47,497 nt of DNA from Sulfurospirillum sp. Lineage in GTDB: Bacteria > Campylobacterota > Campylobacteria > Campylobacterales > Sulfurospirillaceae. Below are positions 42,330 through 47,497 of this stretch, one piece after another. Position 1 is the stretch's first letter, and each line of letters opens with the position of its first letter. Where the stretch lies: assembly GCA_016744795.1 (NCBI GenBank), contig JADGDR010000014.1, positions 1-47,497 on the forward strand, read 5' to 3'. The notes beneath the pieces were generated by a model. That model saw only the letters and a program-made list of their open reading frames with translations, searched no databases and was not told the DNA's origin. The position numbers and the translations under genes were made by a program.

Positions 42330-43007
42330 ATGATTGATAGACAAATAGACGTGAGTTGGAAAGAGATACTTTGTGATGAGTTTGAAAAGCCATATTTTTC
42401 TAATTTGGAAGATTTTTTACTTGGTGAAAAACAAAACTATACTATTTTGCCAAAAACGAAAGACATATTTAATGCCTTTAATATTACGCCCTTTAATAAA
42501 CTAAAAGTTGTAATAATAGGACAAGATCCATATCATGGAGAAAATCAAGCTCATGGTCTTGCTTTTTCAGTAAATGATGGCATAGCTCATCCTCCTTCTC
42601 TTCGCAATATTTTTAAAGAATTAAAAGAAGATATAGGCTGTGAGATACCTGCTAATGGTAATCTAAACTCATGGGCAAAACAGGGGGTTTTTTTGATAAA
42701 TACAGTTTTAACAGTAAGAGCCCACGAAGCACACTCTCATAAAAACAAGGGTTGGGAAAGATTTATAGAGTATGTTATAAAAATGATTAGCGAAAATAAA
42801 AGTAATGTAGTTTTTATTTTATGGGGTAAACCTGCACAACAAAAAGCAAAGTTGATAGATGAACATAAACATCTTATTCTAAATGCTCCTCATCCATCTC
42901 CTTTGTCATCATATAGAGGTTTTTTCGGTTCAAAACCATTTACAAAAACAAATAGTTATCTGTTAGAACATGATTTAAAAGGTATTGATTGGACTTTGCC
43001 TTTGTAA
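42330..43007 (+). CDS. ung: Uracil-DNA glycosylase
   Basis: A 225-residue family 1 enzyme. The catalytic water-activating motif is GQDPYHGENQAHGLAFS and the minor-groove loop is HPSPLSSYRGFFG. It removes uracil from DNA. Its stop is immediately followed by the convergent stop of the methyltransferase gene (43008), with no spacer. The 11-bp sequence CCTTTGTAATT at its 3' end recurs at 43783. Confidence 0.96.
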   Translation: MIDRQIDVSWKEILCDEFEKPYFSNLEDFLLGEKQNYTILPKTKDIFNAFNITPFNKLKVVIIGQDPYHGENQAHGLAFSVNDGIAHPPSLRNIFKELKEDIGCEIPANGNLNSWAKQGVFLINTVLTVRAHEAHSHKNKGWERFIEYVIKMISENKSNVVFILWGKPAQQKAKLIDEHKHLILNAPHPSPLSSYRGFFGSKPFTKTNSYLLEHDLKGIDWTLPL

Positions 43008-43793
43008 TTATTCTTTTTTTGAATTTTTTGTTTTGTAAGCTTTTAATCTTAGCCTTACATAGTCAGCAACCCATCCATCTTTTTTAGAATAAATTTTTGG
43101 TTTTAAAATTGCTCTTACTTCTTCTTTAAATTGATTTTGTTGTTCTTTCGTTAAATGAGAGATTATCCCATTTGCAAATATATCTAACCAATTTCTAATA
43201 TCATCAATTTTTGTGGGTCGTGGAATTAGTTCAATATATTCAACATTGAAACCATTGTCTTGTAAAAGTTGTTTGTATTCACTATCTTTTGGGAAAATCC
43301 AAGGATTATTGAAGTTACCAAATTCTTCATGTCTGTTAAAAACTTCTTGCATTGCATCTGTTAAAAATTTAATATTTCCATAACCTCCAAACTCTGCAAT
43401 AAATCGTCCGTTATCGTTGAGAGATTTTGAAATTTCTTTTATGGACGCATCAGCATCTTTAACCCAATGCAATACTGCATTTGAAAACACTGCATCAAAT
43501 TCATTTACAAAAGTTAATTGGGTGGCACTCATTACAAAAGCTTCAATGCCCCTTTCTTTAGTTTTTTCAACCATACTATCGCTCAAATCTACAGCAATAA
43601 CTTTTGATTTGCATTTTATTATTTCAGCTGCTAATGTTCCATCACCACAGCCTAGATCCAAAATATTTTCATTTTCTTGTGGATTTAGTAATTCTAGTAC
43701 TGGAAATGCTAAATTAGATACAAAATCAGCATGTTTATTATATTTATCAGCATTCCATTTATTTATATTATCCAAGTATATTCCTTTGTAATT
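42999..43793 (+). repeat. 11-bp direct repeats flanking the methyltransferase gene
   Basis: CCTTTGTAATT occurs at 42999-43009 (end of ung) and at 43783-43793, just upstream of the methyltransferase start. The two copies bracket the gene exactly. They may mark an insertion or a recombination boundary at the end of the integron array. Confidence 0.4.
43008..43775 (-). CDS. Class I SAM-dependent methyltransferase, possible last integron cassette
   Basis: A 255-residue methyltransferase. SAM motif ILDLGCGDGTLAAEI (about 38-52), AVDLSDSMVE and SNAVLHWVKD are typical of the UbiE/Tam small-molecule class, with most resemblance to trans-aconitate methyltransferase-like proteins. Start TTG at 43775 with AAAGGA upstream. 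The sequence just upstream (43788-43818) is a 3' attC half, so the gene sits where a cassette would begin, but no attC follows it before ung. It could be a cassette that lost its attC or ordinary chromosome at the array end. Confidence 0.75.
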   Translation of the reverse strand: MDNINKWNADKYNKHADFVSNLAFPVLELLNPQENENILDLGCGDGTLAAEIIKCKSKVIAVDLSDSMVEKTKERGIEAFVMSATQLTFVNEFDAVFSNAVLHWVKDADASIKEISKSLNDNGRFIAEFGGYGNIKFLTDAMQEVFNRHEEFGNFNNPWIFPKDSEYKQLLQDNGFNVEYIELIPRPTKIDDIRNWLDIFANGIISHLTKEQQNQFKEEVRAILKPKIYSKKDGWVADYVRLRLKAYKTKNSKKE

Positions 43794-43818
43794 TAACGGT
43801 AAGCTTGAGCTTGCTCTC
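43788..43818 (-). other. 3' half of a degenerate attC site
   Basis: On the minus strand the sequence CTTAACCGTTA (43806-43796) is identical to the L'/R' end of the complete attC at 45102-45175. The upstream AAGCTCAAGCTT could form a local stem. A matching 5' half with TAAC is not seen within the preceding 100 nt, so this is read as a half-site left by deletion or insertion. Confidence 0.5.
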
Positions 43819-43847
43819 TTTTCTATTATTATAGTTTATTGTATATT

Positions 43848-43916
43848 TATCGTTTGTTTTGGATTATCTCCATATTGATTTGATTCTGCATCACTATCTT
43901 GTATTGCCCAAACAAC
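43848..43916 (-). pseudogene. C-terminal remnant of a DUF805-like membrane protein
   Basis: Twenty-two codons ending in TAA read VVWAIQDSDAESNQYGDNPN plus KR. The hydrophobic lead and the NQYGxNP end match the C-terminus of DUF805 inner-membrane proteins (typically DSxPGxNKYGPNPKG). The frame begins exactly at the inverted repeat of the transposase element, so the element has cut the gene. No upstream half is recognisable on the other side. Confidence 0.5.
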
Positions 43917-44777
43917 TAGGGTCAGGACACAACCCACTACCTAACATCTCTAAATACTTTAGAAATCATAGCAGGGGATATTTTTAAATATTTTGCAATT
44001 TCTGATTGTTTGTATCCATCTTCTATTGCAGTTATTATATCTTTATTTCTTTGTGGTAAATCTTGAGTATCTGTAAAATGCTCTTGTAGTGTTCTATTTT
44101 TTTCTTGAATGATTCTGTTCTCTTTATTTAAAATTATCTTTTTTTGTTCAGCTTGTAGTGTTTCTAGCTCTTTTTTGCTAAATTTAACTGATAAATACTC
44201 TTTTATATCATCCAATTCATTTTTAAGCTTTGAATTAATAGCACAAGGAATAATATTTAAATTTGTATTTATTATTGTGCCTAATAGTGTAAAAGGATAT
44301 TCTCCTATAGTGTTTGTGATTTTTGCATCAACTGGATTGTATTCTATATATTTAAATAAAGAATATAAATAATCATCATTTAGTATATACCATGATTTGT
44401 ATCTACCTTGCCAGAGATGTCCAATTCTTTTATATTTTTTGTTAAAGTATATTGCATAATTACTATTTACTTGACGCATAAACTGGCTTAGATTTTCAAG
44501 TGATAATTCTATTAATAGATGGTAATGATTGTCCATTAAACAATAAGTATGTATATCAACTTTATGTAATTTACATGCTTTACATAAAATTTCTAAAAAT
44601 TTATTTTTATCATCATTACATTTAAATACATTTTTTCTTTCTACTCCACGATTTACAATATGATGAAATCCTGCCATATCTAATCTTGGTCTTCTTGCCA
44701 TAAAATATTCCATTTGTTTTATTTGAAGTATTTTAGCTTAATTTCACTTAAAAGTAGTGGATTGTGTCCTGACCCTA
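43917..44777 (-). mobile_element. REP-associated (Y1) transposase element with 24-bp inverted repeats
   Basis: Terminal repeats TAGGGTCAGGACACAAYC and onward lie at 43917-43940 and, inverted, at 44754-44777, with one mismatch in 24. They enclose a single Y1/HUH transposase gene whose stop codon lies inside the left repeat. The right end continues into three 15-bp tandem copies (to 44811). It sits within the integron array and truncates a DUF805-like cassette gene. Confidence 0.7.
43937..44701 (-). CDS. REP-associated tyrosine transposase (RAYT, Y1_Tnp)
   Basis: A 254-residue HUH-superfamily nuclease. It has MARRPRLDMAGFHHIVNRG at the N-terminus, the HUH-containing MDNHYHLLIE (about 62-71), and FMRQVNSNYAIYFNKKYKR with the catalytic tyrosine, followed by GHLWQGRYKS. 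A C-terminal helix-turn-helix (IEDGYKQSEIAKYLKISPAM) follows. RAYTs nick single-stranded hairpins of REP-like repeats. The ATG at 44701 gives the standard family start; ATG 44713 is an alternative. Here the flanking inverted repeats may be its substrate. Confidence 0.87.
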   Translation of the reverse strand: MARRPRLDMAGFHHIVNRGVERKNVFKCNDDKNKFLEILCKACKLHKVDIHTYCLMDNHYHLLIELSLENLSQFMRQVNSNYAIYFNKKYKRIGHLWQGRYKSWYILNDDYLYSLFKYIEYNPVDAKITNTIGEYPFTLLGTIINTNLNIIPCAINSKLKNELDDIKEYLSVKFSKKELETLQAEQKKIILNKENRIIQEKNRTLQEHFTDTQDLPQRNKDIITAIEDGYKQSEIAKYLKISPAMISKVFRDVR

Positions 44778-44811
44778 AATTTCCTGACCCTAAATTTCCT
44801 GACCCTAAATT
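44767..44811 (+). repeat. Three perfect 15-bp tandem repeats
   Basis: The unit TCCTGACCCTAAATT occurs three times in a row (44767-44781, 44782-44796, 44797-44811). The first copy overlaps the right inverted repeat of the transposase element. Read on the minus strand it encodes repeating NLGSG after an ATG at 44834, but the frame has no clear ribosome-binding site. The rest of the 44702-44860 gap holds only the 5' half of a probable second attC. Confidence 0.85.
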
Positions 44812-44860
44812 CCCAATAGCTCTGAAAAATCGAAAAAGCATTTATCTCTACAATTTTTTG

Positions 44861-45088
44861 TTATATCTCTTTGTATCGTTGTCGTAATTTTTTAAACCAC
44901 TTAAATATTTCAGGTGTCAATAATAAAAATGTTAATGTTAGCCATAAATGTTGAAAATCAAATCTATCTTTAAACCCTTCTGCTAAAATTTGAAATATGC
45001 TCATAAATAAAAATATAATTATTAGAGTTCCTCTTAGTTTATTTTTATTAATCCATCCATACTTAAACCATTTTAATATAAAATCCAT
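44861..45088 (-). CDS. Small two-helix membrane protein (integron cassette 2)
   Basis: A 75-residue protein with two hydrophobic segments (about 19-36 and 47-61) and basic ends (MDFILKWFKYGWINKNKLRG, KKLRQRYKEI). AAGGAG precedes the ATG at good spacing, supporting translation. Its stop lies within AGATATAAC, the R'' end of its attC. Family not recognised. Small membrane proteins are common in chromosomal integron cassettes. The cassette's ends are GTTATATCT at 44860-44868 and the complementary AGATATAAC at 45102-45110. Confidence 0.75.
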   Translation of the reverse strand: MDFILKWFKYGWINKNKLRGTLIIIFLFMSIFQILAEGFKDRFDFQHLWLTLTFLLLTPEIFKWFKKLRQRYKEI

Positions 45089-45101
45089 ACTTCTGCTCCT
45101 T

Positions 45102-45175
45102 AGATATAACGGTTAAGGAGAGCAATAGTTTCCCCGCTAGGGTAAACTATTAGCTCCTGCGTTTTGTTATGATAC
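45102..45175 (-). other. Complete attC recombination site (attC1)
   Basis: On the minus strand, R'' GTATCATAAC (45175-45166) is followed by AAAACGC and AGGAGC. A long central stem comes next (AATAGTTT pairing with AAACTATT, and CCC with GGG around TAGC). The site closes with GCTCTCCTTAACC and R' GTTATATC (45110-45103). The imperfect dyad symmetry, the unpaired bases and a total near 74 nt are those of integron attC sites. R'' is the exact complement of the first 10 nt of the cassette (46343-46334). Confidence 0.88.
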
Positions 45176-46321
45176 TTACCCCTTGAAAGTTGTAAGTAAT
45201 AAAACTAATTTATCTCTTTCAATTAAACTCTGAATTGAATGTATTAAAGCTGTACTTTGATTATCGGACTTCTCAAATAGTTTGGCTAAAGTTGTAAAGT
45301 TTTTTACTTGTATTAATGATAGATTTTCTTTTAATTTAGTTAGTTCATTAAAATTTGTATCATTAATGTATATAAATAGTTTACCAATTAGTCCAATTAT
45401 TACATCAGATATTTGTATCAGGTCATTAGTTGTTGAATTTTGAAATTCAAAATTCTCCCATTTCTTTTTATCGTCCAAGAACTCCCATCTTTCAAAAATA
45501 TTCTCAATACTGCTTTCTTCATCAAAAATATGATAGGAGTTTTTAAAAATACCAAATGGTCTTTTGTAAAAAATAAATAAATCATCTATTAGTATATGAC
45601 TTTTTTCATCCATAATAAAAGGTAGTTCTGTATTTTTTGATTCTTCTATAATTTGATAAACTAGACCAATTAAACTTTTATCAATAGTTGGGTACTTTGA
45701 AATAAATTTTGTCTCATTAATTTTTATATAATTCAAGATTTCATCTAAAAAGTCATTTGCTTTTTTTCTATCAATATTTGGATACTCATATTTATATAGT
45801 ATTTCAATAAATTTATTTAAATCTATTTTTATAAACTCATAGAGAATTGTTTTTAATTCCATATGAATTTGAAGCAAATCTTGAGGAATCATTGATTCTA
45901 AAATATCAATAGTTGACCAATATAAAATATTTAAATTTGAATAATGTAAAAATAAATCATTTGATACGAACCAGTCTAAAAATATTTCAAGTTTTTTAGA
46001 TTTTAAGCATGATAAAAAATCACCTTTAGCTATATATGTTAATTTCATTTCTTTAACTGTATTTGGTAATTTTAAATCTTGATTTAATCTTTCTGTATCA
46101 AAATTTATTTTTGACTTAAGATGAGAGACTCCACCTAAAACAAAATTTTTAGATAAATCTGTAATAGGAATATTAAATTTATTTTCATTTTTAAACCAAA
46201 ACTTTCTAAGATTATTTGTTTCATCGTAATAAAAAGTATATTCAGTATCAATATTTTTAAAATTATGCATTTTGATTTCTAAATCTCTATTCTCATTAAT
46301 ATTAAACTTCATTTTTTCCAT
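45176..46321 (-). CDS. DUF3800-like protein (integron cassette 1)
   Basis: A 381-residue soluble protein of the DUF3800 type. YTFYYDETNNLRKFW (about 28-42) carries the conserved Asp-Glu start of the RNase H-like fold. FIMDEKSHI in the middle and a late LIQISDVIIGLIGK match the QxxD(x)2 helix of the family. Function is unproven; members occur in mobile elements and defence-like islands. AAGG precedes the ATG, which lies 22 nt from the attI crossover. The stop is directly followed by attC R''. Composition is more AT-rich than its neighbours. It is the first cassette and so the best expressed. Confidence 0.7.
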   Translation of the reverse strand: MEKMKFNINENRDLEIKMHNFKNIDTEYTFYYDETNNLRKFWFKNENKFNIPITDLSKNFVLGGVSHLKSKINFDTERLNQDLKLPNTVKEMKLTYIAKGDFLSCLKSKKLEIFLDWFVSNDLFLHYSNLNILYWSTIDILESMIPQDLLQIHMELKTILYEFIKIDLNKFIEILYKYEYPNIDRKKANDFLDEILNYIKINETKFISKYPTIDKSLIGLVYQIIEESKNTELPFIMDEKSHILIDDLFIFYKRPFGIFKNSYHIFDEESSIENIFERWEFLDDKKKWENFEFQNSTTNDLIQISDVIIGLIGKLFIYINDTNFNELTKLKENLSLIQVKNFTTLAKLFEKSDNQSTALIHSIQSLIERDKLVLLLTTFKG

Positions 46322-46333
46322 TTTGTTAGCCTT

Positions 46334-46343
46334 GTATCATAAC
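46334..46343 (-). other. attI x attC junction (insertion point of cassette 1)
   Basis: On the minus strand GTTATGATAC, a GTTRRRY-type core, with the crossover expected between G (46343) and T (46342). It is the reverse complement of the attC1 R'' arm at 45166-45175. The attI site proper lies on the integrase side (about 46343-46420). Confidence 0.8.
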
Positions 46344-46359
46344 TACTTATTCAACGAAC

Positions 46360-46368
46360 ATTATAACA
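46360..46368 (-). promoter_or_regulatory. Candidate cassette promoter Pc
   Basis: On the minus strand TGTTATAAT is an extended -10 box, ending 17 nt before the attI crossover and pointing into the cassettes. No good -35 is visible, which is normal for this phylum. Transcription would start near 46353. Confidence 0.6.
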
Positions 46369-46471
46369 CACTTGGCTCTTATTTAATAATTAACTGAACA
46401 TAAAAAGTGTACATTGATTGTTGAAAATATTTCATTTTGTAATGTTTTTAGCTCTTTTTTTAGAAATGCTC

Positions 46472-46561: not shown

Positions 46562-46574
46562 GAACATTTTGTTC
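46562..46574 (+). promoter_or_regulatory. GAAC-N5-GTTC inverted repeat upstream of intI
   Basis: GAACA-TTT-TGTTC lies 20 nt before the intI start, just ahead of the ribosome-binding site. It resembles a LexA box of the GAACN4GTTC type but has one extra spacer base. It could equally be a small hairpin that affects translation. Confidence 0.4.
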
Positions 46575-46594: not shown

Positions 46595-47497
46595 ATGAGT
46601 CAAAAAAATAGATTATTAGATATTGTTAGAGATAAGATAAGAATAAAGCACTATAGTATTTCAACTGAAAAGACTTATGTTCATTGGATAAAATGTTATA
46701 TTTTATTTCACAACAAAAAGTACCCAACTGAAATGGGAAAAGATGAGATAGAACAGTATTTGACAAGTCTTAGTGTTAGAAACAAAGTATCTGCTACTAC
46801 GCAGAATCAAGCATTTTCTGCGATACTTTTTTTGTATAGAGAAGTTTTAGACATAGACATGAGTGAGTGGGACATACAAGCTTTAAGAGTTCAGGAGAAA
46901 AAACATATACCAACTGTTTTGACTAGGGAAGAAGTAGAAAAAATCATATTTAATTTAAATGGTATTTATCATCTTCTAACTTCTTTGATGTATGGTTGTG
47001 GTTTGAGGATGAGTGAGCTTTTAAGTCTTAGACTCAAAGATATTGACTTTGACTTTGACAAGATATACATTTGGGATAGCAAGTCACTTAGGGACAGAAC
47101 TTTACCATTGCCAAGTAAGTTAAAAACAAAGCTTATGGCACAAGTTGAACTAGTGAAAGAGTTACATGTAAAGGATTTGGCAGATGGTCATGGAACTGTT
47201 TATATGCCTTATGTCTTTGAAAAAAAGTATCCTAAAGCAAATAAAGAGACAAAATGGCAGTTTTTATTTCCTATGACTAAGGTAAGTAAAGACCCAAAAA
47301 GTCAAACCTTAAGGAGACATCATATTCATCCTCAAACATTAGGTCGCAACATAAAACAAGCTTCTTTAAAAGCAAATATTAACAAAAGGGTAACATCACA
47401 TATATTTAGGCATTCGTATGCCACACATCTTTTACAAGCGGGTATAGATTTAAGAACCATACAAGAACTGTTGGGACACAGAAGTGTTGAAACTACG
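46595..47497 (+). CDS. intI: Integron integrase IntI (3' end outside window)
   Basis: The first 301 residues of a tyrosine recombinase. The core-binding domain is at about 1-100. The catalytic domain has Arg138 (GCGLRMSELL), HIFRH (His269, Arg272) and LGH (His295); the nucleophile Tyr lies past the edge. Between them, residues about 205-245 carry the insert unique to integron integrases: KYPKANKETKWQFLFPMTKV, then SKDPKSQTLRRHHIHPQTL. This separates IntI from XerC/D. AGGAGG sits 5 nt before the ATG. It is divergent from the cassettes, as in class 1 integrons. A TACATGTA palindrome at 47163 suggests that it has long been resident in this genome. Confidence 0.96.
   Translation, partial: MSQKNRLLDIVRDKIRIKHYSISTEKTYVHWIKCYILFHNKKYPTEMGKDEIEQYLTSLSVRNKVSATTQNQAFSAILFLYREVLDIDMSEWDIQALRVQEKKHIPTVLTREEVEKIIFNLNGIYHLLTSLMYGCGLRMSELLSLRLKDIDFDFDKIYIWDSKSLRDRTLPLPSKLKTKLMAQVELVKELHVKDLADGHGTVYMPYVFEKKYPKANKETKWQFLFPMTKVSKDPKSQTLRRHHIHPQTLGRNIKQASLKANINKRVTSHIFRHSYATHLLQAGIDLRTIQELLGHRSVETT

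Follow-up and report, generated by a model that had tools for sequence, protein, structure and literature searches.

The window analysed here, a contig of 47,497 bp taken at its full length from an assembly of 30 contigs, carries what can be recognized with high confidence as the integrase-proximal end of a small chromosomal integron, with two cassettes behind its attI site. The host belongs to the same genus as Sulfurospirillum arcachonense (DSM 9755 genome). The region is identified by a gene of the integron integrase family, a conserved attI, the predicted fold of an attC, complementary ends in both cassettes, and the left edge of cassette 1 found again in a second family. The complementary ends are standard integron geometry and belong to ordinary, textbook integron biology; new here are a second family's confirmation of one edge to the base, a cassette with candidate antiphage content, and damage associated with a transposase element.

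In integrons generally, the substrates of IntI are attI as double-stranded DNA and the bottom strand of attC in folded form (PMC8946536). The anatomy of this region agrees with every stage of the scheme, and we propose that IntI, encoded outward at 46595, would recombine attI (46343/46342) with the attC sites of circular cassettes, which would be cut at G|TT. A cassette's start and its R'' box are complementary because, in the circular form, the folding of attC would pair them; after insertion the start would lie one cassette length from its R'' partner, the two staying complementary because attC needs to fold. The gene of cassette 1 would be read from a promoter inside attI, while attC2 and the cassette after it appear to have been damaged, apparently when a REP-associated transposase element arrived, and a single attC remains intact in the genome.

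Complementary ends and the edges of cassette 1

The features that bear on the ends of the two cassettes are as follows.

45110-46342, minus strand: cassette 1, 1233 bp, from the TT at the attI|cassette boundary to the G after attC1
46343-46334, minus strand: start of cassette 1, GTTATGATAC, R' of the circular form, its G contributed by attI
45175-45166, minus strand: R'' of cassette 1, GTATCATAAC, an exact 10 bp match to the start
45102-45175, minus strand: attC1 as integrated, with R'' at 45175-45166 and R' at 45110-45102 (this R' is that of cassette 2)
45110-45102, minus strand: start of cassette 2, GTTATATCT, read from the sequence
44868-44860, minus strand: R'' of cassette 2, AGATATAAC, an exact 9 bp match to the start

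An earlier note on this DNA had paired each start with its R'' by exact complementarity, over 10 and 9 bp, and had argued that chance would not give both. The matches are exactly of these lengths and lie at these positions, and the argument against chance holds up. Each of the two 10-mers occurs once in the 47.5-kb window and each of the two 9-mers twice; under a second-order Markov model of the window, the probability of the other seven bases of the first match, given GTT, is about 1.3e-4, and that of the other six bases of the second about 6.7e-4. In a stricter null, real cassette starts from relatives' integrons were paired with the R'' of other cassettes, and only six of 1190 mismatched pairs (0.5%) reach 9 bp, with none reaching 10. 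The GTT/AAC plus RRRY inside each match is integron core consensus, so the informative excess comes to about 3-6 bases per cassette. The general rule invoked by that note, complementarity of a start to its own R'', is correct: for 35 neighbouring attC pairs in relatives the match lengths form two peaks, with 18 pairs at 7-11 bp (most commonly 8), against 4% of mismatched pairs, and the others at 3-6 bp, many of these likely being pairs with an undetected attC between them. The matches of 9 and 10 bp in the window are normal for its group.

A stem-loop is predicted for attC1 on both strands, and in the predicted fold of the circular form the cassette's own start and R'' make an R stem of 10-11 bp with the usual unpaired and extrahelical bases. 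The site has 18 invariant columns in common with nine attC sites from three other genomes. A strict RYYYAAC/GTTRRRY consensus scan of the window missed attC1 because its boxes depart from the consensus. A covariance model built from ten training sequences, attC1 among them, so that its 62 bits follow by construction, finds one attC in the host genome and from 1 to 21 in 14 of 15 other genomes tested. No further intact attC was found in the 30 contigs of the host assembly, where the contig ends inside intI and not in the array.

When breakpoints were compared between genomes, as the earlier note had proposed, attI homology among relatives was found to end at G|TT, and the homology of the cassette-1 gene to a copy in a genome of another family (G282, locus L070) was found to begin at 46343, the G of the predicted G|TT. 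The G282 copy, in which the reading frame is disrupted, is 88% identical in nucleotide sequence over 791 bp. The DNA before the match is a structured, gene-less mini-cassette in G282 and attI in the window, so that one gene stands behind two different neighbours with its edge at the predicted base. This comparison covers the integrase-proximal edge only; the G282 copy meets the contig end before its attC, and the remainder of the gene was not found in G282, the copy ending at the contig start. Of the limits 45110-46342 given earlier for cassette 1, the integrase-proximal one is thus fixed by a breakpoint, and the far one is drawn from complementarity and attC. No second copy of the 1233-bp unit was found in the host genome. 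By BLAST, attC1 shares 95% identity over 65 bp with a G282 attC that had no part in building the model, and the attC of cassette 1 is therefore of the G282 type. GC content is 23% in the cassettes, versus 31% in the whole window. Cassette 1 is a real cassette, and its transfer between the two lineages, directly or via a third, is likely from the sequences compared. Its circular form is predicted to have the junction ...TCTCCTTAACCG|TTATGATAC, and its excision would leave attI joined to cassette 2 at ...GAATAAGTAG|TTATATCT.

The ends might instead have arisen by chance, or belong to some other inverted-repeat element, such as an insertion sequence or MITE-like element with repeats of 9-10 bp, with the recombinase gene merely incidental; transposons often end in inverted repeats of about 10 bp, and there is a transposase element in the vicinity. 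The repeats, however, are not terminal, R'' being followed by another 55-65 bp (L'' and L') before the boundary, as in attC. The boundary is G|TT in two independent comparisons (relatives' attI and G282), the adjoining gene scores above the integron-integrase cut-off, and matches this long are rare even between real ends of different cassettes. We give this explanation a negligible probability, and the region is treated below as an integron.

Integrase gene, attI and presumed promoter

Between the cassettes and the end of the contig lie four features.

46595-47497, plus strand: intI, integron integrase gene (NCBIfam TIGR02249), its 3' end cut by the contig end
46562-46574, no strand: perfect palindrome GAACAAAATGTTC, immediately upstream of intI
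46343-46412, minus strand: attI region, with crossover G|TT between 46343 and 46342, conserved in relatives
46360-46365, minus strand: TATAAT, presumed -10 box of Pc, with TG one base upstream, 17 bp before the crossover

Despite its truncation, the intI product scores 378 bits against TIGR02249, a curated integron-integrase model with a cut-off of 265. The gene is open across 301 codons, and the contig stops before the position of the catalytic Tyr. Matches to intI occur in 12 of the 44 genomes of the family, host counted, and full-length relatives show 60-85% amino acid identity; broken copies are present in the related genomes G033 and G036. The latter, S. arcachonense, has a full and a broken intI on contigs C13 and C23 (L059 and L060), and both contigs break off at one shared position shortly after attI (GTTGTACGTTC, where its mini-cassette starts).

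Homology in attI among relatives runs up to ...AATAAATAG|TT, and relatives keep ...TATAATGTnCnTTGAATAAATAG|TT as the end of the DNA between intI and the cassettes. Directly after G|TT the sequences part in G025, G033, G042, G040 and G007, and the contigs of G041, S. arcachonense, G039 and a Sulfurimonas MAG stop only a few bases away from it. Such divergence and contig ends at G|TT are the expected assembly effect of a busy insertion point. TATAAT is kept at the same place in attI in most relatives, and, standing 17 bp before the crossover, it is likely part of the cassette promoter Pc; a sigma-70 pair scan returned no partner -35 box for it. Cassettes close to Pc are those expressed (PMC8946536). 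A 44-bp copy of the attI end, 84% identical and including TATAAT, is found elsewhere in the host genome (C22:55702-55744; L108:3703-3745), between a RelBE-like toxin gene and an ORF of 134 aa. Similarity ends at the crossover base (46343), where the next bases are CA rather than TT, and this copy may be what remains of a second integron or of a fusion involving attI.

The palindrome at 46562-46574 is a candidate operator or integrase accessory site. In the intI-attI interval of eight sequences, some of them closely related, motifs of the form GRACA-N-TGTYC give 14 matches at no more than one mismatch, versus about 0.7 expected. Palindromes of the forms GRACA-N3-TGTYC (46562-46574 in the window) and GRACA-N6/7-TGTYC (46396-46412) recur between intI and attI in most relatives, and these recurring sites are candidates for repressor operators or integrase accessory sites. 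The Gram-positive LexA box is GAAC-N4-GTTC, and a LexA reading of the GAACA-N3-TGTTC palindrome was dropped because its spacing is unlike that box.

Related genomes also contain gene-less mini-cassettes of 151-191 bp with G|TT at both sides, observed in G007, G040, G282, G042, G036 and G008 (L057:1316; L058, minus strand 1277; L070:820-978; and L074, L145, L147, L150, L152, L156 and L157). Each is built of a hairpin, formed by R' and R'' arms with few bases between them, and then a large branched stem reaching to the next G|TT, so that nearly the entire mini-cassette is attC. Their sequences vary between genomes while the arms remain complementary. In G007, G040 and G042 they adjoin attI directly; elsewhere they stand between cassettes.

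Cassette 2 and the damaged distal array

Beyond attC1 the array continues through the following features.

44861-45088, minus strand: ORF of cassette 2, 75 aa with a hydrophobic stretch, AAGGAG ahead of it; cassette 2 starts at 45109
44818-44868, minus strand: left half of attC2, degraded or interrupted, with R'' at 44868-44860, from the sequence
43909-44812, minus strand: REP-associated tyrosine transposase element, with an ORF at 43937-44713
43836-43915, minus strand: 3' tail of a truncated ORF (...VWAIQDSDAESNQYGDNPKQTINIQ, then stop), from reading the sequence
43795-43830, minus strand: degenerate short attC ending ...TTACCG|TTAAATTAC, boundary 43797/43796
43008-43775, minus strand: class I SAM methyltransferase gene, after the last G|TT, with no attC of its own

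The cassette 2 protein has no significant family match, and a search of 397 genomes turned up no relative of cassette 2, so its limits are those given by complementarity. They had been placed at about 44860-45109. The start stands, the boundary 45109/45110 being shared with the end of cassette 1, and so does R''; 44860 as the end was mistaken, for this position is in R'', where attC begins. Past R'', some 25 bases (AACAAAAAATTGTAGAG...) still look like an attC left half; the likeness is then lost, and the attC model gives the site 7.6 bits. The far end of cassette 2 is not fixed because attC2 is degraded beyond R'' and the REP-associated transposase element comes next.

That element has inverted ends, GGGTCAGGACACAA[T/C]CCACTAC, and carries GGGTCAGGA three times at one end with 15-bp spacing; four GGGTCAGGA sites are present in all, versus 0.04 expected. 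Its ORF matches Pfam Y1_Tnp at 60.4 bits, over the cut-off, and NF047646 at 67.4 bits, under the cut-off of 80. Diverged copies with GGGTCAGGA-type ends are seen on five other host contigs (C9, C11, C13, C26 and C29), several partial ones being clustered at C9:91600-93600.

On the far side of the element, the truncated ORF tail, to judge from the sequence, is probably the remnant of a third cassette gene. The degenerate short attC is a weak match (9.0 bits, E 0.63) that has its ...ACCGTT end in common with attC1. The methyltransferase gene forms the distal end of the array and abuts a convergent uracil-DNA glycosylase gene; among the genomes searched it has no homolog at E <= 1e-50 in the same family, and homologs in other families of the order are 44-68% identical. 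A direct repeat, ATTACAAAGG, lies on both sides of this gene (42996-43015 and 43780-43800), one copy at the G|TT boundary and the other at the end of the uracil-DNA glycosylase gene, and the pair may be a scar that a deletion or an insertion left at this distal end. The array probably once had at least four cassettes, and what lies beyond cassette 2 is now largely wrecked.

The state of the array raises the possibility that the integron is real but a fossil, with immobile cassettes and an inactive intI or array. The genome retains a single intact attC, attC2 and the site after it are degraded and interrupted by the transposase element, the end of intI lies outside the contig, and related genomes include those with broken intI. 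Against this, intI is open over its 301 codons, attI and attC1 retain the conserved positions, and attC1 and cassette 1 are close to sequences of another family, which suggests fairly recent capture. A fossil is, on this evidence, rather unlikely, and we favour a platform that may still recombine.

The gene of cassette 1 and known systems

One gene occupies cassette 1.

45176-46321, minus strand: ORF of cassette 1, 381 aa, a DUF3800 / PADLOC PDC-S51 candidate antiphage protein

The product matches Pfam PF12686 (DUF3800) at 34.3 bits, against a cut-off of 21, and PADLOC PDLC05033 (PDC-S51) at 355.5 bits, with residues 4-377 aligned to profile positions 1-370 of 376. In PADLOC, a PDC entry denotes a predicted candidate. 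Among 397 genomes of the class only four others have a relative at E <= 1e-10, and the sole close one found, 81% identical over 189 residues, is that of G282, in the integron array of another Campylobacterota family. Plasmids in many bacterial groups carry relatives, the best of them 30-38% identical, and none was found in viral contigs. Searches of solved structures gave no significant match, a single-sequence AlphaFold prediction (mean pLDDT 37) was too poor for use, and a literature search found no paper naming PDC-S51.

By these profile matches cassette 1 carries a candidate antiphage gene. The gene may nonetheless serve some other purpose, RNA processing for example, within an integron that is correctly recognized: PDC-S51 is a statistical candidate, the structure prediction offers no help, and DUF3800 is described as having an RNase H-like fold and an unsettled role, standing beside a Cas12a2 branch (PMC10910872). 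On the other side are the full-length match to a defence-associated family, the related genes on plasmids of many bacterial groups, and reports that defence genes are stored in integron cassettes (Darracq 2025 and Kieffer 2025, as cited in PMC12690207). We give a non-defence role somewhat less than an even chance, and continue to regard the gene as a candidate for defence. In G282, where the mini-cassette precedes the PDC-S51 cassette, a cassette beside these two (L070:1100-3450) contains a long ORF; judged by eye, this ORF resembles a DNA methylase or restriction enzyme, so the cassette may be a second one for defence.

Like the sedentary chromosomal integrons of the Vibrio type, the host integron has an integron integrase, an adjoining attI, intI and cassettes back to back, one ORF and one attC per cassette, the G|TT cut, and a start complementary to R''. 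Unlike them, it has attC sites of the Campylobacterota type, about 60-75 bp long, and an array apparently damaged by a REP-associated transposase element; V. cholerae has some 180 cassettes, while the host genome has one intact attC. The possession of many cassettes with closely similar attC sites, a trait of large sedentary integrons, was not seen in the host assembly. Literature searches turned up no dedicated integron study for Campylobacterota and none on integrons in Sulfurospirillum, the one paper combining Sulfurimonas and attC being concerned with carbonic anhydrases.

Antiphage cassettes of integrons have reportedly been described by Darracq et al. 2025, Kieffer et al. 2025 and Getz et al. 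2025. Those studies are cited in PMC12690207 and PMC12444791. Cassette 1 resembles them as a single-gene candidate defence cassette, here in first position, and differs in that its host belongs to a different phylum and DUF3800/PDC-S51 is a candidate family only. Among PDC-S51 / DUF3800 proteins, it shares the full-length profile match and differs from the plasmid relatives (30-38% identical) in that its sole close relative lies in an integron array. A broader proposal, which we consider doubtful, is that Campylobacterota integrons would form a trade network for single-gene antiphage cassettes, that DUF3800/PDC-S51 would be a functional stand-alone defence recently moved between families as a cassette, and that the attC-only mini-cassettes of 151-191 bp interspersed in the arrays may be structural or transcriptional spacers.

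The case shows how the rule of complementary ends lets a cassette edge be fixed to the base from raw sequence. It also identifies a gene predicted to be antiphage as an integron cassette common to two Campylobacterota families. The value of the case lies in its natural test, two neighbours and one edge, and in a cassette small enough for direct testing.
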